Below, piece by piece: positions 1 to 53,903 of a DNA stretch of 64,000 nucleotides. The position numbers and the translations under genes were made by a program. The notes beneath the pieces were generated by a model that saw nothing but the letters and a program-made list of their open reading frames with translations, made no database searches and was not told where the DNA came from. This stretch comes from Mumia flava. GTDB taxonomy: Bacteria; Actinomycetota; Actinomycetes; Propionibacteriales; Nocardioidaceae. How positions within the stretch are numbered: position 1 is the first letter of the stretch; each line of letters starts with the position of its first letter. The stretch spans positions 868,001 through 932,000 of the forward strand of contig NZ_PGEZ01000002.1 in NCBI RefSeq assembly GCF_002797495.1, written 5' to 3'.

Positions 1-945
1 TCATGCCGGCACCGCCTCGGACCGGATCGGCCGACGCGACCAGAGCTGCGCGACGGTCAGGCCGGCGATGATGTCCCAGATCCCCCACCAGGCCGCGACC
101 AGCGCCATCCCGCCGAGCCCGTCGAAGAACTGGAAGACGAGCAGCAGGCCGAGCCCGGCGTTGCGGATCCCGACCTCGAACGTCACCGCACGCGTGGCGC
201 GGTCCGGCAGCCGGCCGGCGCGGGCGATCGCCCACCCGGTCGCGAGCGCGAGCGCGTCGTGCAGGAACACCGCGACCACGACGACGCCGATGTAGGTCAC
301 GAAGATCGACCAGTTGCCGGCGATCCCGGACACGATGATGGCGGCGAGGCCGAGGAACGCGACCTTGCCGACGATCCCGTGCGCCCGCTCGGCGACCCGC
401 GGCCACAGCTGCGAGACCGTCAGGCCGAGCGCGAACGGGATGCCGATCACGAACAGGATCTCGCTCAGCATGTCCCACGGGGACAGCGCGATGTCGGCGA
501 GGTAGTCGCTGCCCGTCGGGTGCAGGCCGCCCCAGAACGCGAACGTGATCGGCATCAGCACGATCGAGAGCAGGTTGCCGATCGCGGTCATCGAGACGGA
601 CAGCGCGACGTCGCCCTTCGCGCGGTGCGTGAGGATGTTCGAGACGTTGCCCGGCGGGCAGCACGCGACCAGGATCATGCCGAGCGCGACCGACCCCTGG
701 ACACCGAGGACGAGCGTGAGCACGAACGTCAGCGCCGGGAGGACGAGGAACTGCGCCGCGATCGCCAACGCCACCGGCACCGGCTTGCGCAGCGCGGTCC
801 GGAAGTCCGACAGCCGGGTGTCGAGCGCGATCCCGAACAGGATCGCCCCGATCACGATCTTCAGCAGCGTCAGCGACGACTCGTCGAACGAGATCCGGAT
901 CGAGTCCACGTCGGACGCGGCCGCGAGCACGGTCGAGGGATCCAT
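1..945 (-). CDS. Bile acid:sodium symporter (BASS/SBF) family transporter
   Basis: Polytopic inner-membrane protein of 314 residues with about nine hydrophobic segments, in the size range of bacterial BASS transporters. The signature CCPPGN followed by VSN lies near residues 95-103, and a second conserved stretch (FEVGIRNAGLGLLL) lies in the C-terminal third, as in sodium/bile-acid symporter folds. The family moves organic anions or keto acids with sodium; the substrate cannot be told from sequence. The ATG at 945-943 overlaps the TGA of the upstream monooxygenase by one base (TGATG), so the two are probably translationally coupled. Longer in-frame extensions upstream are shadows of the monooxygenase gene. 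Confidence 0.85.
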   Translation of the reverse strand: MDPSTVLAAASDVDSIRISFDESSLTLLKIVIGAILFGIALDTRLSDFRTALRKPVPVALAIAAQFLVLPALTFVLTLVLGVQGSVALGMILVACCPPGNVSNILTHRAKGDVALSVSMTAIGNLLSIVLMPITFAFWGGLHPTGSDYLADIALSPWDMLSEILFVIGIPFALGLTVSQLWPRVAERAHGIVGKVAFLGLAAIIVSGIAGNWSIFVTYIGVVVVAVFLHDALALATGWAIARAGRLPDRATRAVTFEVGIRNAGLGLLLVFQFFDGLGGMALVAAWWGIWDIIAGLTVAQLWSRRPIRSEAVPA

Positions 946-2402
946 CAGGACAGCTCCTCGGTGGCGGCGCGGACGGCCGTACGGTAGGCGTCCTTGTTGA
1001 CGTAGTACGCCATCCGCTCCAGACCGAGGTACTTGTAGCCGCCGGACAGGTCCGGGAGCGGTCCACGGGTCCGTTCGGCGAACGCCGCCGCCTGCTCCGG
1101 TCGGTCGCGGCGCGCCTCGAGGTACGCGGCGATCAGCTCGGCCTGCTCGTAGCGGCCCTGCCAGCCGAGCCCGGACGCCTCCACCATGCCCATCACGAAC
1201 AGGTCGTCGCGCACGGGCGTGAAGATGTTGAAGTACAGGGCGGGCGCGTCGCCGTCCCACCGCAGGTGCTCGGGATCCACGAACGGGTAGTGCAGCGTGT
1301 AGCCGGTCGCGAGCACGATCAGGTCGTAGTCGTCGCTGCTGCCGTCGCGGAAGTGCACGGTGTGACCGTCGAAGTGATCGATGTCGGCCTTGATCCGCAG
1401 GTCGCCGTGGCCGAGGTGGTGGAGGATCAGCGAGTTCACGATCGGGTGCGACTCGTAGATCTTGTGGTCCGGCTCCGGGAAGCCGAGCCGTACGGGGTCG
1501 CCGGTGAACAGCTTGAGGATCCGGCTGTCGACCGCCTGCTTGATCCGCGGCGGCAGCGGCCTGCCCTGGTTCAGGGTGTCGGCGGGTTTGCCGAAGACGT
1601 ACTTCGGGACGAAGTGGTAGCCCCGGCGCACGCTCATGTCGACCGACGCGGCGTGGTGGACCGCGTCGACGGCGATGTCGCAGCCGGAGTTGCCGGCGCC
1701 GATCACCAGCACGCGCTTGCCGGCGAACGCAGTGGCGCGGCGGTACTCGCTGGTGTGGATGATCTCGCCGTCGAACTGGCCCTTGAAGGACGGGACGTTG
1801 GGCTCGGACAGCGTGCCGTTGGCGATGATCACGCCGGCGACCCGCTCGACGGTCTCGACGGACGGGTCTCGATCGCTCGCTCCGCTCGCGCCTCGACCAC
1901 CGGAGTCATCGCCGGGGTTCTCGCCTCGACCGCCGGGGTCCTCGCTGGTCGAGGCCGAGCGGAGCGAGGATCGAGACCCGACGCTCCGCGACCGCACCTC
2001 CCAGCCGCCGTCGGGGTGCGGCTCGACCCGGACGACCTCCGTACCGAAGGCGTAGTGCCGACGCAGGTCGAAGCGGTCCGCGTACGCCGCGAAGTAGCGC
2101 TTCAGCTCGCGGTGGCTCGGGTAGTCGGCGACCTCGTCGGCCATCGGCATCTCGGCGAACTGCGTCGTCGTCTTCGACGAGATCAGGTGCGCCGACTCGT
2201 ACATCGTGCTGCGCGGACCCTCGATGTCCCACAGCCCGCCGACGTCGGTGTGCATCTCGTAGCCGCGCACCGCGAAGCCCCGCTTGGTCAGGGCTCGGGT
2301 GGCGGCCAGGCCGGACGGACCGGCGCCGATCACGGCGTACGGGAGGTCGTCCGGCTGGGCGTCCGGCTGGACGTCCGAAACGTCGGAATTCGTCTTGGGC
2401 AT
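945..2402 (-). CDS. Flavin-containing monooxygenase (FMO/Baeyer-Villiger type)
   Basis: Protein of 485 residues, predicted cytosolic NADPH- and FAD-dependent monooxygenase. The FAD Rossmann motif VIGAGPSG is at residues 24-31, the FMO fingerprint FxGxxxHxxxY is visible as FDGEIIHTSEYR, the NADPH Rossmann motif VIGAGNSG follows, and LATGY is near the C-terminus. Residues about 142-180 are not family sequence. They are encoded by a palindromic family A repeat (1864-1979) and read as a Ser/Arg/Gly/Asp-rich peptide between the FAD and NADPH domains, so the reading frame survives an insertion. The gene is coupled to the downstream transporter. The substrate is unknown. Confidence 0.88.
   Translation of the reverse strand: MPKTNSDVSDVQPDAQPDDLPYAVIGAGPSGLAATRALTKRGFAVRGYEMHTDVGGLWDIEGPRSTMYESAHLISSKTTTQFAEMPMADEVADYPSHRELKRYFAAYADRFDLRRHYAFGTEVVRVEPHPDGGWEVRSRSVGSRSSLRSASTSEDPGGRGENPGDDSGGRGASGASDRDPSVETVERVAGVIIANGTLSEPNVPSFKGQFDGEIIHTSEYRRATAFAGKRVLVIGAGNSGCDIAVDAVHHAASVDMSVRRGYHFVPKYVFGKPADTLNQGRPLPPRIKQAVDSRILKLFTGDPVRLGFPEPDHKIYESHPIVNSLILHHLGHGDLRIKADIDHFDGHTVHFRDGSSDDYDLIVLATGYTLHYPFVDPEHLRWDGDAPALYFNIFTPVRDDLFVMGMVEASGLGWQGRYEQAELIAAYLEARRDRPEQAAAFAERTRGPLPDLSGGYKYLGLERMAYYVNKDAYRTAVRAATEELS
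1864..1979. repeat. Family A palindromic element inside the monooxygenase gene
   Basis: A 116-bp element. The left arm starts GGGTCTCGATCGCTCGCTCC and the right arm is its near reverse complement ending GGATCGAGACCC; the middle repeats the CTCGACC and GTCGAGG motifs. The same arms occur intergenically at 17.6, 20.3 and 53.8 kb and inside dnaE2. Here it is translated in frame as part of the monooxygenase. Confidence 0.85.
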
Positions 2403-2489
2403 GCGCCCTAGTGTGCCAGGTCACACCAACGGACCCATCGGCGCTTGCTCCAGGCCGCGTCGCGCGGACCCGGGGAACACCCTGCCCTC

Positions 2490-2533
2490 GGGATTCCTCG
2501 CACACCGTACGCGCACGGTGTGCGAGGAATCCC
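2490..2533. repeat. Family B hairpin element between dnaE2 and the monooxygenase gene
   Basis: Perfect inverted repeat with 19-nt arms (2490-2508 and 2515-2533) and a 6-nt loop. The left arm reads GGGATTCCTCGCACACCGT. A second copy lies at 20500-20537, so this is a dispersed element and not just a local terminator. It could still terminate or attenuate transcription leaving dnaE2. The rest of the 204-bp gap (2403-2606) shows nothing else recognisable. Confidence 0.75.
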
Positions 2534-2606
2534 GATGTGCCACCCTCTGTGCGCGCACGGCGCGTCCCCGCTCAACACGCGTCCCCCGCCTCACGCGCGT
2601 CCCCGC

Positions 2607-5600
2607 CTAACGGAAGTCGCGCGATGTGGTCCGGGCGGTGATCGGGAGGCGCTCGAGCCGGTCGGCGTGGAGGTTCGCGGCTCCGTCGCGTCGCTCCAAG
2701 AGCCCTCGGACCACCAGGGCGCTGGAGTCGCGGGCGATCCGCCGGTAGCGCGCCCACAGCCCGGCCGTGCAGATCACGTTGAGCATGCCGGTCTCGTCCT
2801 CGAGGTTGAGGAATGTGACCCCGCCTGCCGTCGCCGGCCGCTGCCGGTGCGTCACGAGGCCCGCCACCTCGATCCGTAGCCCCGGCTCCGTGTGAGCGAG
2901 GTCGGCCACCCGCAGCACCCCCCGTACGGTCATCGCCTCCCGCACGTGCTCGATCGGGTGACTGTCCGGCGCGATGCTCGTCGCCCACAGGTCCGCCATC
3001 GTGGTCTCTGCCGGGCTCATCCCCGGCAGCATCGGAGCCTCGCGCAGTGCGGTGGTGCCCTCCAGCTGGTCCGGTGACTCCTGCGACGCCGCACCCGCCG
3101 ACCACAGCGCCTGCCTGCGCGACAGGCCGAAGCCGTCGAACGCCCCCGCGGTCGCCAACGCCTCCACCTGAGGTGCGGTCAGCGGGACGCGGCGAGTCAG
3201 GTCCGTCATCGAGGCGTACGGGCCGCCCCGCTCACGCTCGGCGACGATCCGCTCGGCCAGGCCGGTCCCGATCGAGGTCACCGACGTCAGTCCGAGGCGG
3301 ACCACGAACCGTCCGTCGCGGCGGTGCCAGGCGTGGTCGAACGGCGCGTCGGGGTCGAAATCGCCCACGGGCGGCTGGTCGGTCACGAGACACGCATCGT
3401 GGCCGGAGGGGTCTCGATCACTCGCTCCGCTCGCGCCTCGACCAGCGGAGCTCCCGTTGGTCGAGGCGGAGTTCCCGCCCGACCCGGTGGTCGAGGCGGA
3501 GCGGAGCGACGATCGAGACCCGCCCGACCCGCTCGCCTCCGCAGCCTCGAGGTCCGCGGCGGTGGCGACCGAGGCGTTGATGTCGGGACGCAGCACCTCG
3601 ACCCCGTGGTGACGCGCATCGGTGACGAGGCTCGCCGGCGAGTAGAACCCCATCGGCTGCGCCCGCAGGAGGCCCACCAGGAACGCGCCGGGGTAGTGCA
3701 GCCGCAGCCACGTCGAGGCGTACACGAGCAGCGCGAAGCTGATCGAGTGCGACTCGGCGAACCCGAAGCTCGCGAACGCCTCGATCCGCAGGTAGATCTC
3801 GTCGGCGAGCTCGCCGGTGATCCCGTGCGACGCCATCCCGGCGTACAAGGTGGCGCGCAGCCGCTCGATCTTCTCGACCCCGCGCTTGGAGCCCATCGCC
3901 CGGCGCAGCAGGTCGGCCTCGTCGCCGGTGCAGCCGCCGACCTGCATCGCGATCTGCATCAGCTGCTCCTGGAACAGCGGCACCCCCAGCGTCCGCTTCA
4001 GCACCGGCTCCAGCGCCGGGTGCAGATAGCTGATCTCCTCCTCGCCGGTGCGGCGGCGGATGTACGGGTGGACGGCGCCGCCCTGGATCGGACCCGGACG
4101 AATCAGCGCGATCTCGGTGACCAGGTCGTAGAAGCAGCGAGGACGCAGCCGCGGAAGCGTGCCGATCTGCGCCCGGCTCTCGACCTGGAACACCCCCACG
4201 GAGTCGCCGCGACACAGCTGGTCGTAGACGCCGGGCTCCTCCTTCGGGATCGTCGCCAGCTCCCACCGCTCCCCCACGTGCTCGGCGACCACGTCGAAGC
4301 AGTGCTGGATCGCGCCGAGCATCCCGAGGCCGAGCAGGTCGAACTTGACCAGGCCCATCCACGCGCAGTCGTCCTTGTCCCACTGCAGCACCGTCCGGTC
4401 CTCCATCCGAGCGTGCTCGACCGGACACACCTCCCCCACCGGCCGGTCCGTCAGCACCATCCCGCCGGAGTGGATCCCGAGATGGCGTGGAGCAGTCAGC
4501 AGCTGGTCGGCGAGGTCGAGGACCGGGTCCGGGATCTCCCCGGCCAGCTCCTCGCGCGGCAGGGTCCCCCATCGGTCGATCCGCTTCGACCAGGCGTCCT
4601 GCTGCCCGGTCGAGTAGCCGAGCGCCTTCGCCATGTCGCGGACGGCGGACTTCGGGCGGTACGAGATGACGTTCGCGACCTGCGCCGCGTTGTGCCGCCC
4701 GTACGTCGCGTACACCCACTGGATCACCTCCTCGCGACGGTCGGAGTCGAAGTCGACGTCGATGTCCGGCTCCTCGTCGCGCGTCGCGGACAAGAACCGC
4801 TCGAACGGCAGGTCGAACTTCACCGAGTCCACCGCGGTGATGCCGAGGGCGTAGCAGACCGCCGAGTTGGCGGCCGAGCCCCGGCCCTGACAGAGGATCC
4901 CGCGCCTGCGGGCGAACGCGACGATGTCGTGCACGATCAGGAAGTAGCCGGGAAAATCCTTCTCCTCGATCACCGCGAGCTCGGCCTCGAGCCGCTCGTA
5001 CGTGCTCGCCGGCGCGCCGGCGTACTTCTGGTCCGCCCCGCGCCGGACCAGCTCGCGCAGCCAGGTCATCGGGGTGTGTCCGTCGGGGACCTGCTGCTTC
5101 GGGAGCCGCGGCTTGGCCCGGCGCAGCTCGAAGGCGAGATCAGCGGCCACGTCGACCGTCCGCTCCACCGCTCCCGGCCAGCGAGCGAACGCCCGCGCCA
5201 TCTCCGCCCCGGAACGCAGGTGGGCCCCGGCCGCGGGCAGCCAGCCGTCCATGTCCGCGAGGCTGCGCCGCGCCCGGACCGCCGCGACCGCGTGCGCGAG
5301 CCGCCGGTCGGTCGGCGTGGCGGCGTGCACGTTGCCGGCCGCGACGACGTCGAGCCCGCAGCGCGCCGCGATCGCCGCCAGAGCGTCGTTGCGGACCGCG
5401 TCGCGAGGGTCCCCGGACTCGGACAGCTCGACCAGCACCGCGTCGGAGCCGAACCGCTCGACCAGCGCCCGCGTCTCCGTCTCCGCCGCCGCCTCGCCGC
5501 CCGGTCCGGCGAGCGCCTGACGAACCGCGCCCTTGCGGCAGCCGGTCAGCACGACCGCGTGCCCGGCGAGCCGCTCGGCGACCGCGTCCAGGTCGTAGAC

Positions 5601-6128
5601 CGGGCGTCCCTTCTCCCCGCCGGCCAGGTGCGCGTCGGTCAGCGTCGCGGACAGCCGGTGGTAGCCCTCCTGTCCACGCGCCAGCACCAGCAGGTGGCTC
5701 CCTTCCGGGTCGGCGATGCCGTTCTGGGGGCCGCGCAGTCCCAGCGACAGCTCCGCGCCGAACACCGTCGGCATCCCGTGCAGGTCTGCCGCCTCGGCCA
5801 TCCGCACCACCCCGTACAGGCCGTCGTGGTCGGCCAGCGCCAGGGCCGACAGCCGCAGCCGGACCGCCTCCTCGACCAACGCCTCCGGGCTGCTCGCGCC
5901 GTCGAGGAAGCTGAAGTCGGAGTGCGCGTGCAGCTCGGCGTACCCGACGTACGGCTCGTCGGGATGCGTGTCGGGCACGGCCGGCGGCTCGTACGGTCCG
6001 CGCTTGCGCGACGTGCCCGGACCGTCGCCGCCGTCCAGCTCGAACCCGGCCCGCTCGTGCGGCAGCAGCCGGCCGGACAGCCGGCGCTCCAGCTCCGACC
6101 ACGGCATGTCCGGGTTGTTGAATCCCAT
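2607..6128 (-). CDS. dnaE2: Error-prone DNA polymerase III alpha subunit, DnaE2
   Basis: Protein of 1173 residues. The N-terminal PHP domain begins at about residue 64 (AELHAHSDF) with ALADHDGLYG following. The polymerase catalytic carboxylates sit in PDIDVDFDSDR near residue 452, and a C-terminal OB-fold resembles other DnaE2. DnaE2 performs damage-induced translesion synthesis with ImuA' and ImuB. The start is the ATG at 6128, preceded by GGAGAGGAGGG; the frame opens further upstream but only with shadow sequence. Residues about 870-907 are encoded by a family A repeat (3409-3521), a non-family Ser/Gly/Arg-rich insertion in the variable stretch before the RLGLTSV region. It is the third gene of the LexA-controlled cassette, 37 bp after imuB. 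Confidence 0.95.
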   Translation of the reverse strand: MGFNNPDMPWSELERRLSGRLLPHERAGFELDGGDGPGTSRKRGPYEPPAVPDTHPDEPYVGYAELHAHSDFSFLDGASSPEALVEEAVRLRLSALALADHDGLYGVVRMAEAADLHGMPTVFGAELSLGLRGPQNGIADPEGSHLLVLARGQEGYHRLSATLTDAHLAGGEKGRPVYDLDAVAERLAGHAVVLTGCRKGAVRQALAGPGGEAAAETETRALVERFGSDAVLVELSESGDPRDAVRNDALAAIAARCGLDVVAAGNVHAATPTDRRLAHAVAAVRARRSLADMDGWLPAAGAHLRSGAEMARAFARWPGAVERTVDVAADLAFELRRAKPRLPKQQVPDGHTPMTWLRELVRRGADQKYAGAPASTYERLEAELAVIEEKDFPGYFLIVHDIVAFARRRGILCQGRGSAANSAVCYALGITAVDSVKFDLPFERFLSATRDEEPDIDVDFDSDRREEVIQWVYATYGRHNAAQVANVISYRPKSAVRDMAKALGYSTGQQDAWSKRIDRWGTLPREELAGEIPDPVLDLADQLLTAPRHLGIHSGGMVLTDRPVGEVCPVEHARMEDRTVLQWDKDDCAWMGLVKFDLLGLGMLGAIQHCFDVVAEHVGERWELATIPKEEPGVYDQLCRGDSVGVFQVESRAQIGTLPRLRPRCFYDLVTEIALIRPGPIQGGAVHPYIRRRTGEEEISYLHPALEPVLKRTLGVPLFQEQLMQIAMQVGGCTGDEADLLRRAMGSKRGVEKIERLRATLYAGMASHGITGELADEIYLRIEAFASFGFAESHSISFALLVYASTWLRLHYPGAFLVGLLRAQPMGFYSPASLVTDARHHGVEVLRPDINASVATAADLEAAEASGSGGSRSSLRSASTTGSGGNSASTNGSSAGRGASGASDRDPSGHDACLVTDQPPVGDFDPDAPFDHAWHRRDGRFVVRLGLTSVTSIGTGLAERIVAERERGGPYASMTDLTRRVPLTAPQVEALATAGAFDGFGLSRRQALWSAGAASQESPDQLEGTTALREAPMLPGMSPAETTMADLWATSIAPDSHPIEHVREAMTVRGVLRVADLAHTEPGLRIEVAGLVTHRQRPATAGGVTFLNLEDETGMLNVICTAGLWARYRRIARDSSALVVRGLLERRDGAANLHADRLERLPITARTTSRDFR
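3409..3521. repeat. Family A palindromic element inside dnaE2
   Basis: A 113-bp element with the same inverted arms as in the monooxygenase gene: GGGTCTCGATCACTCGCTCC on the left and a near reverse complement ending GACGATCGAGACCC on the right. Two extra GTCGAGG cores lie between the arms. It is read through in frame by dnaE2. Confidence 0.85.
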
Positions 6129-6165
6129 CGGCCCTCCTCTCCGTCGTCTCGGCCGTACGGCGCCC

Positions 6166-7830
6166 TCAGTCGTACTGCGCCTCGGCGCACCAGCCGTCGT
6201 CGCCGACCCGCAGCAGCCAGGCCGTCCCGTCCACGCCGACGACCTGGAACCGCGCCGCCCGGACTGCGGACGCGGCGTCCCACCAGCGCTCGTCGACCGG
6301 CCACGGTCCGGCCCACGCCTGCACCGGGTGCAGACCGTCGCCGCTGCGCTGGTCGAGGCGCGAACCTGCAGCCCCGTCCCGCTGGTCGAAGCGCGAACCT
6401 GCAGCCCCGTCCCGCTGGTCGAAGCGCGAACCTGCGAGCGATCGAGACCCCTCCCCCGGTCGAGACCCTCCCACCGCGAACCGGGCCGGCGCCCCCGACA
6501 GCGCACCGCGCTCGCTCACCACCACCGGCCGCCCGTCCACGCCGACCACCTCGGCCGGGCGCGGCGGGTCGTACACCCGGGCGGGAGCGGGCGGCGGCAG
6601 GCTTCCCGGCCACGGCGGCGACGGCGAGCGGGCCGGCTCGAGCGGGTCGCCCCACGGCACCGCCGTCTGCCGGTCGGCGGGCCCGCGACCACCCCCGAGG
6701 ACCACGGACACCACCGCCTCCCGGCCGAGCATGCTCTGCACCTTCGACGCGGCCCGGTGCACCCGCTCGTCCGGCCCGCTCCCCCACAGACCGTCGGCGT
6801 GCTCGGTCACCGACGCGCACTCCGCCGGCACGAACCGGACCGCCTCCACCGGCCCGCTCACCGCCGACGCCGACCCGGCCGACAGCTGCCAGCGGACCCG
6901 GTCGACGAGGTCGCCCGCGTCGAACCAGCGCGGGTGCAGCCACTGCCGCTCGGTCACCTCGCCACGGTCGGTGCGGACCTCGATCCAGACCGACGTGCAC
7001 ACCGTCTGGTGCGCGGCGAGCGCCGAGACCATCTCCTCCGCTGCACGCCGCACGCTGAACGCGACCGCCTCGGAGTCGACCAGCGGCGGCTCGAACGCGA
7101 CCTCCCGCTCGAAGTCGCTCGGCGGTCGCCGCGACGCGAACGGCCGGTCGTCGACCCCGCGGGCGAGCCGGTGCGCGAGCGCCCCGTCGGACCCGAACCG
7201 GTCCCGCACGTCCGCCGCGTCCAGGCCGGCGAACGCCCCCAGTGTCCGCAGACCGAGCCGTTGCAGCAGGCTCGCCAGATCCGGACGCTCGAGCACCGCC
7301 ACCGGCAGGTCGGCGAGGAACGCCCCCGACGCCCCCGCCGGCACGACGAGGCTGTCCTGCGGCAAGGCCCTGCGTGCCGCCTGCTCCGCGGTGAAGACCG
7401 AGTCGGCGATCCCGGCCCGGACGTCGTCGACCCCGTACGTGACCAGCCGCTCCGCGAGCACCGCAGCCGCGTGCCGCTCGCCGCCGAAGTAGCGCGCCGG
7501 ACCCGCGACCCGGATCGCGCAGGTCCCGGGCCGCAACGGCTGCACCCCTGGGGCGACCTCCTCGACGAGCGCCAGCACCGGCTCGTACGCCCGAGCCTCG
7601 TGGCCGGGGTCGCGCTCGGTGACGACGAGCTCGGGACACCGCGCCTGGGCGTCGCGCATCCGCTGCCCACGGCGCACCCCGTCCGTACGGGCGCGCGCCG
7701 AGCACGCCACCACCTCACCCCCCTCGACGACCGCGACCGGCGCACCCGCGGGGAGGTCGAGCCCGAGCCCGGTGTGCGTGACCGCCCGCACCGGCCAGTC
7801 CGGGCACCACAGCACCAGCGCCCGCGCCAT
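6166..7830 (-). CDS. imuB: ImuB-like Y-family DNA polymerase homologue (mutasome adaptor)
   Basis: Protein of 554 residues. The N-terminus MARALVLWCPDWPVRAV is typical of ImuB, the catalytically inactive Y-family relative that links DnaE2 and ImuA' to the replication clamp. A Y-polymerase fold covers roughly residues 1-330, and the C-terminal tail (WWDAASAVRAARFQVVG) matches the usual ImuB end. Residues about 461-494 are an in-frame insertion made of an 11-residue repeat (GSRFDQRDGAA, twice, plus a partial copy) encoded by a 33-bp tandem repeat at 6348-6436. The ATG overlaps the imuA' TGA by one base, so translation is coupled. Confidence 0.92.
   Translation of the reverse strand: MARALVLWCPDWPVRAVTHTGLGLDLPAGAPVAVVEGGEVVACSARARTDGVRRGQRMRDAQARCPELVVTERDPGHEARAYEPVLALVEEVAPGVQPLRPGTCAIRVAGPARYFGGERHAAAVLAERLVTYGVDDVRAGIADSVFTAEQAARRALPQDSLVVPAGASGAFLADLPVAVLERPDLASLLQRLGLRTLGAFAGLDAADVRDRFGSDGALAHRLARGVDDRPFASRRPPSDFEREVAFEPPLVDSEAVAFSVRRAAEEMVSALAAHQTVCTSVWIEVRTDRGEVTERQWLHPRWFDAGDLVDRVRWQLSAGSASAVSGPVEAVRFVPAECASVTEHADGLWGSGPDERVHRAASKVQSMLGREAVVSVVLGGGRGPADRQTAVPWGDPLEPARSPSPPWPGSLPPPAPARVYDPPRPAEVVGVDGRPVVVSERGALSGAPARFAVGGSRPGEGSRSLAGSRFDQRDGAAGSRFDQRDGAAGSRLDQRSGDGLHPVQAWAGPWPVDERWWDAASAVRAARFQVVGVDGTAWLLRVGDDGWCAEAQYD
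6348..6450. repeat. 33-bp tandem repeat, family A related, inside imuB
   Basis: Two full 33-bp units (6348-6380, 6381-6413) and a partial third (from 6414), each starting GCTGGTCGA. The third unit ends in GATCGAGACCC, the family A terminus. The 33-bp period is a multiple of three, so copy-number change keeps the imuB frame. Confidence 0.85.
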
Positions 7831-9154: not shown

Positions 9155-9168
9155 GCGCAGCCGCTGCA

Positions 9169-9252
9169 GACTCCGTAGCCGGCTGGGGTGAGCTGCACCG
9201 GGCGAGGGAAACCTTCGGTGCCCAGTGCAGAACTCCCCAGCCGGCTACGCAG
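9169..9252. repeat. Family C element downstream of the secreted protein gene
   Basis: Large imperfect inverted repeat. The left arm contains CTCCGTAGCCGGCTGGGG and the right arm CCCCAGCCGGCTACG, around a GGCGAGGGAAACC centre. Related sequences lie at 44.9, 48.5 and 53.7 kb, always between genes. Confidence 0.7.
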
Positions 9253-9294
9253 ACCGCCCCCGGCCGATCGGTGCAGGACCGGTCCGGGGGCGGT
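9253..9294. terminator. Bidirectional terminator hairpin between convergent genes
   Basis: Arms ACCGCCCCCGG (9253-9263) and CCGGGGGCGGT (9284-9294) form an 11-bp GC stem. It lies between the 3' ends of the secreted protein gene (+) and the peptide transporter operon (-). There is no T tract, as is usual in actinobacteria. Confidence 0.65.
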
Positions 9295-17572: not shown

Positions 17573-17811
17573 GGGTCTCGATCGGGCTCGTCCCTCGCCC
17601 GCCTCGACCAGCGTGACGTCCGCTGGTCGAGGCGCGAGCGGAGCGAGGGATCGAGACCCGTAGGCTCGCCGGCACCCGCGCGTGACGTCCGCTGGTCGAG
17701 GCGCGAGCGGAGCGAGGGATCGAGACCCGTAGGCTCGCCGGCACCCCCACGTGACGTCCGCTGGTCGAGGCGCGAGCGGAGCGAGGGATCGAGACCCGTA
17801 GGCTCGCCGGC
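17573..17811. repeat. Family A array: 69-bp unit repeated three times
   Basis: After one inverted family A half-copy (17573-17611), a 69-bp unit occurs at 17612-17680, 17681-17749 and 17750-17811. Each unit holds GGTCGAGGCGCGAGCGGAGC, ends GATCGAGACCC and is followed by GTAGGCTCGCCGGCA. The last copy runs into the ATG of the methyltransferase gene, so the duplicated segment includes that gene's -10 region. Confidence 0.88.
17799..17811 (+). promoter_or_regulatory. Leaderless -10 element of the methyltransferase gene, inside the repeat
   Basis: TAGGCT (17799-17804) lies seven bases before the ATG at 17812, the spacing seen for other leaderless starts here. The same TAGGCT recurs in the two upstream 69-bp repeat copies. 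Confidence 0.55.
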
Positions 17812-18540
17812 ATGCCCGCGCCCGAGCCTCGTCCGCAGATGGTCATCACCGGTGAGCGGACGGTGCCGGGGCTCTGGCACGAGAACTACTGGTTCCGGCG
17901 TCACGAGATCGTCTACGAGGCGATCGCCGACCGGGTCGCTGATCGCCGGGTGCTCGAGGCCGGGTGCGGCGAGGGGTACGGAGCGGACCTGCTCGCCCGG
18001 ACCGCCGCTGCGGTCGTCGCGCTCGACTACGACGCGTACGCGACCGGGCACGTCCGCACCGCCTATCCCCTGCTCCGGGTTCTGCGCGGCAACCTCGTGA
18101 GCCTGCCGTTCACGGACGGCGCGTTCGACGTGGTCGTGAGCCTGCAGACGATCGAGCACCTGTGGAGCCAGGAGGCGTTCCTCGCCGAGTGCGTGCGTGT
18201 CCTCCGTCCGGGCGGCACGCTCGTCGTCAGCACGCCGAACACCCTGACCTTCCCGCCCGGCAACCCGTACCACCCGAACGAGCTCGACCCCGACCAGCTC
18301 CGCGCTCTGGTGGCGCGGCACGCGACGGTCACCCAGTACGCGGGGCTGCGGCACGGAGCCCGGCTGACGACGTGGGAGCGCGAGCACGGTTCGATCGTCG
18401 AGGCCCAGATCGCGGGGCCGTACGCCTCGTGGCCCGAGCCCGTCGCCACCTGCGTCGCGTCGGTCACCACGGCCGACTTCGCGCTCGCGGAGGACGATCT
18501 CGCCACCTCGCTGGACCTCGTGATCAGCGCCCGGGTCTGA
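17812..18540 (+). CDS. Class I SAM-dependent methyltransferase
   Basis: Protein of 242 residues. SAM motif I is VLEAGCGEGYGADLLA, with acidic motif II VVALDYD, motif IV DVVVSLQTIEHLW and the post-motif LRPGGTLVVSTPN. This is the Methyltransf_11 pattern typical of small-molecule or lipid methyltransferases; the substrate is unknown. It begins directly at the edge of a tandem repeat, so its leader is repeat DNA and its transcript is probably leaderless. It precedes the ClpP pair by 86 bp in the same direction. Confidence 0.85.
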   Translation: MPAPEPRPQMVITGERTVPGLWHENYWFRRHEIVYEAIADRVADRRVLEAGCGEGYGADLLARTAAAVVALDYDAYATGHVRTAYPLLRVLRGNLVSLPFTDGAFDVVVSLQTIEHLWSQEAFLAECVRVLRPGGTLVVSTPNTLTFPPGNPYHPNELDPDQLRALVARHATVTQYAGLRHGARLTTWEREHGSIVEAQIAGPYASWPEPVATCVASVTTADFALAEDDLATSLDLVISARV

Positions 18541-20267: not shown

Positions 20268-20335
20268 GTCGGCAGGCTAGGTCAGGTCGCGCCTCGCAGG
20301 AAGGCCGTTCTGCTAGGGGCGGACGGGGTCTCGAT

Positions 20336-20470
20336 CACTCGCTCCGCTCGCGCCTCGACCAGCGAAGACCCACCCGCTCCGCTCGCGCCTCGACCGGCGA
20401 AGACCCACCCGCCCCGCTCGCGCCTCGACCAGCGAAGACCCACCCGCTCCGCTCGCGCCTCGCCCAGCGG
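20336..20470. repeat. Family A array with a 35-bp period, four copies
   Basis: Starts GGGTCTCGATCACTCGCTCC, then four copies of a unit (20341, 20376, 20411, 20446) containing GCTCGCGCCTCGACCAGCG and AAGACCCACC. The 35-bp period is not a multiple of three. It fills much of the 411-bp gap (20268-20678) between the PopR-like gene and the acyltransferase. Confidence 0.85.
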
Positions 20471-20499: not shown

Positions 20500-20537
20500 A
20501 TTCCTCGCACACCGTGCGCGTACGGTGTGCGAGGAAT
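20500..20537. repeat. Family B hairpin element, second copy
   Basis: Inverted repeat with 16-nt arms (ATTCCTCGCACACCGT at 20500-20515 and its complement at 20522-20537) and a 6-nt loop. It is nearly identical to the element at 2490-2533. Confidence 0.75.
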
Positions 20538-20607
20538 CCCACGTGGCCCGATTTTCTGGTGGGCCGCGCGTCTTCCAGTGGGCCGCGCGTCGCGGCTGCC
20601 GGATCAC

Positions 20608-20678
20608 GCCAGCCGCGAACCGCCAGCCGCCAACCGCCAGCCGTCACCCGCCAACCGCCAGCCGCCACCCGCCGGCCG
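20608..20678. repeat. Low-complexity CCGCCA/CCAGCCG repeat tract
   Basis: A run of short near-repeats of AACCGCCAGCCGCC and ACCCGCCAACCGCC up to the stop codon of the acyltransferase gene. No gene or hairpin was recognised in it. Confidence 0.6.
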
Positions 20679-21368
20679 TCAACCGAAGGTCTCGCGCGCC
20701 TCGGCCTGCTCGGCGGCGACCTCGGCGGTGTAGCGCTGGATCTCGGCCCACTCCGCCGCGTCGTCGCGCCGACTCTTGACCACGCGTCCGGGCAGCCCGG
20801 CGACGATCGCGTAGTCCGGGTAGTCGCCCCGGGCGACGGTGTGCGCCGCCAGCACGACCCCGCGCCCGGTCGTCGTGCCCCGCAGCACCGAGGCCTTCAC
20901 GCCGATCCACGAGTCGGGACCGATCCGTACGGGCGCGACCACCAGCCCCTGGTCCTTGATCGGCCGCTCCAGGTCGAGCGTGACGTGGTCGAAGTCGCAG
21001 ATGTAGGTCCAGTCCGACACGATCGTCGCCGCACCGATCTCGATGTCGAGGTGGGCGTTGACGATGTTGTCCGACCCCATCACGACCTTGTCGCCGAGCC
21101 GCAGCGTCCCGTTGTGCGCACGCAGCGCCGTCCGGTCGCCGAGGTGCACGAACGCACCGAGGACGATCCGGCCGTACGGAGTCTTCGTCTCGATCTGCAC
21201 GTCCCGACCGAGGAACACGAACCCCTCGGTGATGACGTCCGGGTGCCGCCGGCGGAACCGCCAGAACCGCCAGTAGCGCACCAGGTGGTACGGAGTCCAT
21301 GCGCGGTGCCGCCGGACCCAGCGCCACGAGTCGCGGGTCAGGAACCGGGCCTGACGCGGAGCGCTCAC
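20679..21368 (-). CDS. Left-handed beta-helix (hexapeptide) acyltransferase
   Basis: Protein of 229 residues. Hexapeptide-like turns run from about residue 55 to 185 (IVLGAFVHLGDRTALRAHNG, IEIGAATIVSDWTYI, IGPDSWIGVKASVL) and end in the usual AGLPGRVV. The family transfers acetyl or other acyl groups to sugars or other small acceptors; the target is unknown. The GTG start overlaps the TGA of the upstream methyltransferase (GTGA). Context (methyltransferase, enoyl-CoA hydratase) hints at modification of a glycan or lipid, but weakly. Confidence 0.85.
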   Translation of the reverse strand: MSAPRQARFLTRDSWRWVRRHRAWTPYHLVRYWRFWRFRRRHPDVITEGFVFLGRDVQIETKTPYGRIVLGAFVHLGDRTALRAHNGTLRLGDKVVMGSDNIVNAHLDIEIGAATIVSDWTYICDFDHVTLDLERPIKDQGLVVAPVRIGPDSWIGVKASVLRGTTTGRGVVLAAHTVARGDYPDYAIVAGLPGRVVKSRRDDAAEWAEIQRYTAEVAAEQAEARETFG

Positions 21369-39010: not shown

Positions 39011-40206
39011 GAGTCCGGCGTCGCGCCAGGCAGGAGAGGGGCCTCGGTCTCGCCGGGCGCGGGCGCGGGTGCCGTCTCGCCGGGCGCAGGTGCCGTCTCC
39101 CCAGGGGCGGGTGCCGTCTCGCCGGGCGCCGGTGCCGTCTCCCCAGGGGCAGGCGGGGTCTCGCCGGGCGCGGTCTCGGTCGGCGCGGGCGGGACCAGCG
39201 CCGCCTGCCCGTCGCCGTCCGCGCGGCCGACCACCCCGCCGTACTGCCCGATCACGCGCGGCGTCCCGCTGTCACCCTGCGGCGGGACGTACATCAGCAC
39301 CTCGTGGTAGTAGCGCAGGACACCGGGCCCGCCCATGGGGTCACCGAGGTGTGCGCGCTGCTCGGAGTCGTCCGGCCAGCGGACCACGGCCCCCTGCCTG
39401 AGGGTGTACGCGTCCTGGCGGAGCAGGGTGCCGACCACGAGTGCCCCGCCCTCGCGGGTGCGGAAGGCGTACAGGTCGGGCTGCACCGCCCAGGAGCGCT
39501 CGAGCCCGAGCCCGGGATGCTCGGCCAGCAACGCAGCCTCCTGGCGACGCATCTGCTGCACGAACGAGTCGGTGGCGGCCTCGCCCGGGGCGGCGTCGGC
39601 GTCCAGCGCAGCCGCGTAGTCGTCCAGAGCCTCCTGGGGCGACGCGGCGAGCCCCGCGCCGTCGTCGGCATCGAGCACGTCCAGGGCGCCGTCGGTGACG
39701 GCCGGCTCGGGGAGCGCGGTCGAGCCGAACGTCTCCGGCCCGGCGACCAGCCGCCAGGGCGCGACCGCCGACGGGCGCGAGAACACCCGCAGCTGTCGCC
39801 GCGACCGCTCGTCGTCGGCGGCGATCGTGACGAACCACAGCGGGTACGCGTCCAGGCGCGGCGTGTACTGCTCCTCGGTCTCCCACGTGGACGTACCGCT
39901 CCCGGTGGCGGTGACGCCGTTGAGGAGCCGGGCGACCTGGATCGCGCCGGTGTCGATCGCCAGCATCGAACCGCCCTCGACGAGCGCGAGCGTCTCAGCG
40001 TCGAGCGCGGCCATCCCGAACTCGCGCGCCTCCTCGTACGTCCCCGAGATGCTGTCGACGTCGTCCGGTGCGGCGGCGATCTTGCCCGCGGGAGCGTCCT
40101 TGCGGACCGGGACCACACCGCAGCCCGCGAGCGCGGCCGCGAGCACCCCGACCGCCAGGGCGAGCGCTCCGAGCCGTACGGGGCGGGAACGGAGGCCGGC
40201 CGTCAT
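39007..40206 (-). CDS. Lipoprotein with C-terminal PAPGET repeats
   Basis: Protein of 399 residues with a lipobox (LAALAGC near residue 30). The central region (about 60-340) is a mixed fold of unknown function (WFVTIAADDERSRRQLRVFS, RYYHEVLMYVP). The C-terminal 50 residues are five tandem APAPGET-like repeats encoded by a 21-bp unit, a Pro-rich tail perhaps spanning or binding the cell wall. The ATG overlaps the TGA of the upstream membrane protein gene (ATGA). No enzymatic motif is recognised. Confidence 0.75.
   Translation of the reverse strand: MTAGLRSRPVRLGALALAVGVLAAALAGCGVVPVRKDAPAGKIAAAPDDVDSISGTYEEAREFGMAALDAETLALVEGGSMLAIDTGAIQVARLLNGVTATGSGTSTWETEEQYTPRLDAYPLWFVTIAADDERSRRQLRVFSRPSAVAPWRLVAGPETFGSTALPEPAVTDGALDVLDADDGAGLAASPQEALDDYAAALDADAAPGEAATDSFVQQMRRQEAALLAEHPGLGLERSWAVQPDLYAFRTREGGALVVGTLLRQDAYTLRQGAVVRWPDDSEQRAHLGDPMGGPGVLRYYHEVLMYVPPQGDSGTPRVIGQYGGVVGRADGDGQAALVPPAPTETAPGETPPAPGETAPAPGETAPAPGETAPAPGETAPAPAPGETEAPLLPGATPDS
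39046..39165 (-). repeat. 21-bp tandem repeat encoding the lipoprotein tail
   Basis: About five imperfect copies of a 21-bp unit containing GGTGCCGTCTC and a CC(A/G)GG core, encoding APAPGET. The period is a multiple of three, so slippage changes tail length without a frameshift. Confidence 0.75.
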
Positions 40207-44862: not shown

Positions 44863-44903
44863 CGGCGGTCGGGTCTGCCAGTCGGCGGGGTGGCCTGTCT
44901 CGC

Positions 44904-44992
44904 CTGGCGGTCTCCGTAGCCGGCTACGGGATTCCGCACTGGGCCCCTGATGGTTTTCCCAGCCAGGTGCGGGTCTCCGTAGCCAGGTGGCG
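44904..44992. repeat. Family C element downstream of the MscS gene
   Basis: GTCTCCGTAGCCGGCTACGG, then a GGTTTTCCCAGCCAGGTGCG core and GTCTCCGTAGCCAGGTGG. The same modules occur at 48.5 and 53.7 kb. Confidence 0.7.
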
Positions 44993-48448: not shown

Positions 48449-48597
48449 TGGCAGTCTCCGTAGCCGAGGTCCTGACGGCCTGGCAGTCTCCGTAGCCGAG
48501 GTCCTGACGGCCTGGCGGTCTCCGTAGCCAGCCACGAAGACCCGCACCTGGCGAGGGAAGTTTCCCCAGCCAGGTGCGGGTCTGCGTAGCCAGCCGT
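48449..48597. repeat. Family C cluster downstream of the phosphotransferase gene
   Basis: Three direct copies of (T/G)GGC(A/G)GTCTCCGTAGCC separated by GAGGTCCTGACGGCC, then a hairpin (CACCTGGCGAGGGAAG with TTTCCCCAGCCAGGTG) and a final CGTAGCCAGCC. It fills the gap between convergent gene ends (48443-48626). Confidence 0.75.
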
Positions 48598-53654: not shown

Positions 53655-53659
53655 CGCTG

Positions 53660-53689
53660 ACGGTTTCCGTAGCCGGCTACGGAAACCGT
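53660..53689. terminator. 30-bp perfect palindrome after marR
   Basis: ACGGTTTCCGTAGCC followed at once by its reverse complement (53660-53689), five bases after the marR stop codon. It serves as a terminator, but its CCGTAGCCGG core is shared with repeat family C. Confidence 0.7.
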
Positions 53690-53742
53690 CACCTGGCGAG
53701 GGAGGTTTCCCCTGCCAGGTGCGGGTCTCCGTAGCCAGGTGG
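53690..53742. repeat. Family C element downstream of marR
   Basis: CACCTGGCGAGGGAGG with TTTCCCCTGCCAGGTG forms a hairpin, followed by GTCTCCGTAGCCAGGTGG. It matches the 48.5-kb copy closely. Confidence 0.75.
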
Positions 53743-53749
53743 ACCGACG

Positions 53750-53903
53750 GGTCTCGATCGCTCGCTCCGCTCGCGCCTCGACCGGCGGGACCGCAGCCCG
53801 AGTGGTCTCGATCGCTCGCTCCGCTCGCGCCTCGACCGGCGGAACGGCAACTCGAGCGGTCTCGATCGCTCGCTCCGCTCGCGCCTCGACCAGCGGCACG
53901 GCG
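53750..53903. repeat. Family A array with a 54-bp period, three copies
   Basis: Copies start at 53750, 53804 and 53858, each opening GGTCTCGATCGCTCGCTCCG and containing CTCGACC(G/A)GCGG. All three point the same way, with no right arms. They lie between the convergent marR and ettA genes. Confidence 0.88.

Follow-up and report, generated by a model that had tools for sequence, protein, structure and literature searches.

A probable translated copy of a REP-like palindromic repeat in a flavin monooxygenase of Mumia flava

Introduction

How does a palindromic repeat come to be read as part of a conserved enzyme? The question is raised by positions 1864–1979 of a 64,000-nt stretch of the Mumia flava genome (contig NZ_PGEZ01000002.1, positions 868,001–932,000; hereafter the window), where a first-pass annotation had placed a 116-bp element with inverted arms inside a flavin monooxygenase (FMO) gene and had likened it to the palindromic elements of Rickettsia (RPEs). 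RPEs are palindromic repeats of about 105–150 bp that occur between genes and also as in-frame fusions within conserved protein-coding genes (PMC2229807, PMC10969869), and a guanylate kinase carrying an RPE insert was reported to be active (PMC2229807). Herein, the element, its host protein, its other copies and its occurrence in related species were analysed computationally. The results make it very probable that the FMO block is a tolerated, translated copy of a palindromic family that resembles REPs and MITEs and has spread across the genome.

The insert and its host protein

The annotated element was recovered as a palindromic doublet on the minus strand (1864–1979). It is composed of a 34-nt arm (1865–1898, plus strand) whose two outer pairs are both G-C, a 48-nt spacer (1899–1946) containing pieces similar to the right end of the arm, and a 32-nt arm (1947–1978, minus strand). 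Folded as single-stranded DNA, the coding strand of the doublet reaches −53.8 kcal/mol (z = −9.1), a value equalled by none of 200 shuffles. The in-frame reading was also confirmed: the host ORF (945–2402, minus strand; Pfam FMO-like; 485 aa) has no stop through the insert, which is read as residues 142–180, GSRSSLRSASTSEDPGGRGENPGDDSGGRGASGASDRDP. The Arg-rich linkers so encoded include the stretches GSRSSLRSAST and GRGASGASDRDP. The freedom of the arm from stop codons in all six frames was considered as a special adaptation and rejected, as 42.5% of random 40-mers from the window are equally open.

Alignment with homologues identifies the block as insertion-only. From the tryptophan of GGW to the alanine of ANGT, the Mumia flava FMO has 61 residues, compared with 22–35 in all 80 homologues, which are the loci retained from 154 confirmed (from Microbacterium, Ornithinimicrobium, Nocardioides, Variovorax and others). 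The best FMO matches point to an actinobacterial origin, and to Nocardioidaceae in particular. A short linker was likewise found in G002, a genome of the same genus, and in G018, of another genus, and the same peptide encoded by different DNA was not seen in distant genera. These comparisons agree with the annotated view of the block as foreign to FMOs. At the same linker, the same-genus G003 carries a palindromic repeat of another arm type (GGTCTCGACAGGCTCGACC), and G005 and G001, of the same genus too, carry a repeat of an arm type other than that of Mumia flava (GGTCTCGATCGCTTCGCGCCTCGACC). The G001 orthologue (L057) has a further insertion at a second site, in the RGGGSGSGDGQS region.

In an AlphaFold model built on 24 aligned sequences (mean pLDDT 77), the insert is placed between the beta strands 134–140 and 183–188, upstream of the invariant G235/G237/N238/S239/G240 motif. 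Residues 144–178, within the insert, have a pLDDT below 50, as do residues 1–15, 314–318 and 458–460; low values in the insert are expected in any case, since the block has no counterpart in any aligned homologue. As modelled, the insert lengthens the turn of a beta-hairpin. The annotated location between the FAD and NADPH modules was thus correct in that the insert lies between two nucleotide-binding motifs, but the hairpin turn in the model is no clean module joint.

Copies in the window and in the genome

At up to 3 mismatches, the arm is present in 131 copies (85 + 46) in the 4.40-Mb genome, compared with none for the pattern read backwards. The annotated presence of the same DNA elsewhere in the window also held, with three sites outside called genes: three 34-nt arms at 17625–17796 (minus strand), within a 69-bp triplication spanning 17611–17817; a single 34-nt arm at 20327–20360 (plus strand), behind which partial, degenerate copies of 35 bp run on to about 20469; and three 34-nt arms with 54-bp spacing at 53750–53891 (plus strand). 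Furthermore, a second doublet (3409–3521, minus strand), with a 34-nt arm at 3410–3443 (plus) and a 32-nt arm at 3489–3520 (minus), is read in frame in a dnaE2-like DNA polymerase III alpha ORF that adjoins the FMO (2607–6506, minus strand; limits of the ORF, with a putative start).

One alternative is that GC-rich linkers simply grew as low-complexity sequence by slippage, with no mobile element involved. Such growth could account for the tandem STSGG/ASTSG repeats in the G001 and G005 linkers and for the arm-like pieces in the FMO spacer, but full doublets that closely match the FMO and dnaE2 blocks are present elsewhere in the genome, and slippage produces neither inverted heterodimers nor the covariation within arms described below. 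This origin is barely credible.

Several other repeats were observed in the window. A second, apparently unrelated family with inverted parts (TCTCCGTAGCC / CAGGTGCGGGTCT-like) is present at 9161–9257, 44902–44990, 48510–48597 and 53655–53742, and a 41-nt palindromic sequence (ATTCCTCGCACACCGT...) with 100% complementarity, possibly of a third family, at 2490–2530 and 20500–20540. Imperfect 14-bp repeats (CGCCAGCCGCCAAC-like) lie at 20593–20690, near the single arm at 20327, and imperfect 21-bp tandem repeats (GGCGCGGGTGCCGTCTCGCCG-like) at 39062–39166. A search of the whole window against Rfam at gathering scores returned two tRNAs only, and a search for intrinsic terminators in 900–6600 gave two terminator-like sites, neither at the repeat elements.

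The repeat was surveyed in 72 stretches around listed copies together with the window, 443,072 bases in total, the stretches having been picked by the usual ends of the arm within 3 mismatches. A similar pattern found 110 arms, and a looser one admitting the 32-nt form found 150 arms in 98 sites; the census is incomplete (110 arms compared with 131 genome-wide), since only part of the places with 2–3 mismatches were listed. One arm is present in 64 sites, two in 19, three in 13, and four and five in one site each, and 24 of the 98 sites hold an inverted pair. Among pure tandem arrays, 8 of 10 have exactly three arm copies, including the two in the window. Fixed bases extend past the search pattern as far as CGG (C 149/150, G 149/150, G 135/150) and no further, giving a repeat unit of about 40 nt.

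Placement of the 98 sites is uneven, with 32 between converging genes, 31 between parallel genes and 6 between diverging ones; a further 28 fall within genes and 1 lies at the end of a stretch. The median distance to the 3′ end of the adjacent gene is 35 bp (n = 95). In the window, gaps of 40 bp or more number 7 converging, 17 parallel and 9 diverging, gaps of the element itself included; set against these, the converging and diverging classes differ (p = 0.006, using 16 window gaps, some of which contain the elements themselves), as do all three classes (p = 0.010). Genes are depleted of sites, holding 15 of 98 by a strict rule, or 28 by a looser one, compared with the 0.907 of the window that is coding.

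The concentration behind genes, especially between converging ones, and the strong stem of the doublet would both suit arms that are functional sites under selection, either terminators or binding sites of a chromosome-organising protein, with the genic copies as by-products. Yet 64 of the 98 sites are single arms, whose folding is no better than that of shuffles, copies in genes would terminate their own messages, and the pattern counts of 2 to 333 across one family (see below) are typical of selfish DNA. A functional role as the origin of the pattern is considered distinctly improbable, and spread of a REP-like, MITE-like family remains the preferred reading.

Arm structure and the 34/32 rule

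Covariation was searched in 145 arms with both terminal bases on either side, as well as bases 11, 12, 18, 24 and 25, left free, strongly altered arms being under-sampled because of the way the stretches were picked. Pairing was found in 145 of 145 arms for positions 1–34 (G-C 124, C-G 20, A-T 1) and 2–33 (G-C 139, T-A 3, C-G 2, G-T 1), and in 143 of 145 for 12–24 (C-G 133, G-C 9, T-A 1, unpaired 2), in each case a level reached by 0 of 2000 shuffles. Pair 11–25 received little support (65/108; 92 of 2000 shuffles as high), and non-partner control combinations stayed at shuffle level. Among 19 distinct 34-nt arms, 4 of 11 pairs have changed on both sides (5 of 500 shuffles), with 9 such cells (0 of 500), and 7 pairs are invariant; the signal collapses when the partners are slid, and the structure behind this count was partly drawn from the same data.

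The folding energy of solo arms is no better than that of shuffles (two Mumia flava arms gave z 0.2 and 1.0), so the case for a hairpin in single arms is carried by covariation. Judged by it, every arm acts as a hairpin unit by itself, and the 32-nt form seems to be a 34-nt arm lacking pair 11–25. For 34 distinct Mumia flava arms with a 5-nt tail added, the TCGA stem had a mean probability of 0.06; in the same fold run, the GGTC tag was mostly unpaired and the stem reached 0.42–0.74 in several arms from other genomes, the energy set being uncertain. An unpaired GGTC tag resembling that of CGTC REPs, once suspected from a fold, was rejected, as the outer bases covary as pairs.

Adjoining inverted arms follow a strict rule: one 34-nt and one 32-nt arm are combined in 25 of 26 cases, where shuffling gives an expectation of 13.2 and 0 of 5000 values as high. 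When the GGTC ends point outward, 18 of 19 pairs are heterodimers, and when they point inward, 7 of 7 are; a few arms are shared by two such neighbours. Direct neighbours are like with like in all 26 cases (21 of 34/34 and 5 of 32/32). The 34/32 rule suggests two distinct ends of one unit.

Copies read in frame in other genes

The strict rule called a site in frame when the frame was open, at least 40 codons lay on each side and the codon score exceeded 0.12 on both flanks, the score being home-made and trained on the same sampled stretches. By this rule, 15 of the 98 sites are in frame, in 14 genes that each have a Pfam domain; the 13 sites added by the looser gene call are less certain. The hosts encode a sulfite-oxidase-like protein, Mfd, DnaX, a heavy-metal P-type ATPase, AtuA, a CobBC fusion, CobN, a double ABC ATPase, a DUF3516 protein, NrdJ (two sites), HsdR, the FMO, DnaE2 and urea carboxylase. 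The outer pairs are kept in 29 of 29 arms in these sites. Five of the six frames of the arm are used, as expected if frame retention alone matters.

Several of the 14 hosts, namely Mfd, DnaX and DnaE2, serve DNA replication or repair. Three are cobalamin-related, namely CobBC, CobN and the B12-dependent NrdJ (G000 C1:2367744, C1:2408453, C2:453765 and C2:454320).

Recurrence in related species

Counts of the general pattern GGTCTCGA-N(3-27)-CTCGACC are 167, 12, 123, 89 and 134 in G001 to G005, respectively, and 102 in G018, with controls at 0–2 per strand. It was found in all of 100 genomes drawn from the family, with 2 to 333 copies and at least 50 in 25 of them (controls again 0–2 per strand). 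Across the phylum, 270 of 396 genomes match, mostly with a handful of copies, as coding chance can give; a few are rich.

Comparison with relatives covered 13 of the 15 in-frame sites and comprised 59 gene-species pairs of one locus each with an identity of at least 44%. The full pattern recurs at the corresponding linker in 12 of these and is lacking in 47. The linkers concerned are those of mfd and dnaX (both in G001 and G005), AtuA (G001, G018), the DUF3516 protein (G003), nrdJ at its first (G005) and second (G001) site, and the FMO (G001, G003, G005). In addition, part-motifs are 24 times denser in linkers (51 in 7,221 bases, 7.06/kb) than in the remaining 168,326 bases (49, 0.29/kb); their matches form tandem clusters and lack independence, and since the linkers were picked for their Mumia flava copy, this density describes recurrence at shared sites rather than a genome-wide rate. 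Nothing was found at the site of the double ABC ATPase in 6 of 6 relatives or of the P-type ATPase in 3 of 3, the latter at 48–54% identity and perhaps paralogues. Among the matches listed for six genomes, there was none for HsdR, and urea carboxylase had only matches of 37–39%.

The repeats at the linkers of relatives differ in type from the Mumia flava 34/32 arms. BLAST with the whole element gave matches in G001 and G005 and none in G002–G004, and the Mumia flava 34-mer at up to 3 mismatches was found in none of 57 relatives. A scan of named genomes with the arm likewise gave no match, in a collection that may lack near records. A 26-nt type of G001 and G005 is absent from the sampled Mumia flava segments, where a 19-nt type of G003 occurs twice.

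Such a distribution may also be read as ancestry. The copies would have stood at these sites in an ancestor and would no longer transpose, and gene conversion or template switching would homogenise them within each species, leaving the same linkers with different arm types. This account is favoured by linkers shared by species with different types (the FMO in G001, G003 and G005; mfd and dnaX in G001 and G005), and by the absence of Mumia flava 34-mers from relatives and of the 26-nt type from Mumia flava segments. Template switching across a hairpin could also yield the double changes that keep arms paired, and the prevalence of exactly three copies in pure tandem arrays points to copying errors. 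However, some sites are empty in all relatives compared, as seen for the two ATPases (with the same caveat about paralogues), and the heterodimer rule is not predicted. Moreover, replacement at many unlinked sites would demand very active conversion, and the 19-nt G003 type in Mumia flava indicates that the types are not strictly species-bound. Ancestry with conversion is judged unlikely.

Relation to known palindromic repeats

Among known systems, the RPE analogy proved a good one: like RPEs, the Mumia flava repeat is found in frame in conserved genes and also outside genes, its translation being deduced from the open frames. The host phylum and base composition are different, the comparison being one of published descriptions. 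The annotation placed known in-gene palindromes in Rickettsia; they occur well beyond that genus. According to PMC3733652, GTAG/CGTC-tagged REPs are found in 8 phyla, some of them in genes, often those of replication and repair and including dnaE2, and RPE-6 and RPE-4 correspond to CGTC-tagged REPs. The same source describes REPs as imperfect hairpins of 20–40 nt that stand alone, in dimers or in groups, mostly near 3′ ends where the flanking genes converge or run in parallel; it gives no known transposase for CGTC REPs, and reports that different REPs lie at nearly one position in two recB genes of Xanthomonas.

The Mumia flava repeat shares several of these features. It is a short imperfect hairpin, as indicated by covariation, in high copy (131), it lies near 3′ ends with few sites between diverging genes (32/31/6 converging, parallel and diverging; median 35 bp), and it has intragenic copies, dnaE2 included. 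It differs from REPs, RPE-6 and RPE-4 in that neither GTAG nor CGTC stands as an unpaired tag on its arms, whose outer bases are paired in 145 of 145; 20 of 150 arms do start with CGTC, each with a matching change at the 3′ end. The passages on REPs in PMC3733652 also make no mention of a rule like that of the 34/32 heterodimer, and its main text has no words beginning with "Actino".

REPINs consist of two REPs in inverted orientation that fold into a long hairpin (PMC3116915), and the inverted doublets of Mumia flava resemble them in this respect. Here, however, single-arm sites outnumber inverted-pair sites (64 and 24), and arms in inverted pairs are no closer to the consensus than singlets: the mean mismatches of 34-nt arms are 0.13 for single arms (52), 0.46 for those of inverted sites (26) and 0.10 for those of tandem sites (31). 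Membership in REPINs was ruled out on three counts, as no RAYT was found and doublets are neither predominant nor more conserved. The terminal inverted repeats of MITEs have a likeness in the inverted arms of 24 of the 98 sites, single arms being present elsewhere, but a target-site duplication was absent at 19 Mumia flava doublets (mean flank match 1.95 nt, compared with 2.20 in shuffles).

A Y1 (RAYT-type) transposase was sought with PF01797 only and was not found in Mumia flava or in ten other genomes, eight with 39–167 copies of the pattern and two poor in it (G002 with 12 and G354 with 7); the control search was positive in 5 of 14 known genomes. This absence fits a survey in which Actinobacteridae were reported with only one subclass of Y1 transposases (PMC6006769). 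REP counts for three Actinomycetota species, which may or may not cover this family, have been given by RepRanger (PMC12306157). Among the titles and abstracts listed from the open-licence literature, no actinobacterial description of the repeat was found, and four words of its sequence occurred in none of the papers, which does not imply its absence in print. The Mumia flava family appears to be undescribed, with comparable translated repeats known from other bacterial groups.

Proposed origin and significance

In the preferred reading, the repeat family would spread through the genome and settle mostly just behind stop codons, probably as hairpin-ended single-stranded DNA handled in trans by some enzyme. 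Most insertions in genes would be lost, and in-gene copies would survive where their length keeps the frame and the site is a flexible linker or turn. The survivors would presumably be produced as part of the protein, as a disordered, hydrophilic loop that may be neutral or nearly so.

A broader proposal is put forward tentatively, as a possibility with somewhat more against it than for it. The repeat may belong to a RAYT-less, untagged REP-like superfamily that is common in the family, has a two-ended unit (34 + 32 nt) and recolonises the same loops of DnaE2, Mfd, DnaX, NrdJ and FMO, acting as a steady source of linkers. The 34-nt and 32-nt hairpins would then resemble the left and right ends of single-strand transposons.

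Since the usual transposase was not found, the question arises of what copies the hairpins, and the 34/32 rule together with the covarying ends would provide concrete bait for the copying enzyme. Because repeats occur at shared linkers in several species, they offer a natural series for the effect of an inserted loop on an enzyme. Translated palindromes would be extended from Rickettsia and Proteobacteria to high-GC Actinobacteria, where they would lie in genes of replication, repair and B12 metabolism.
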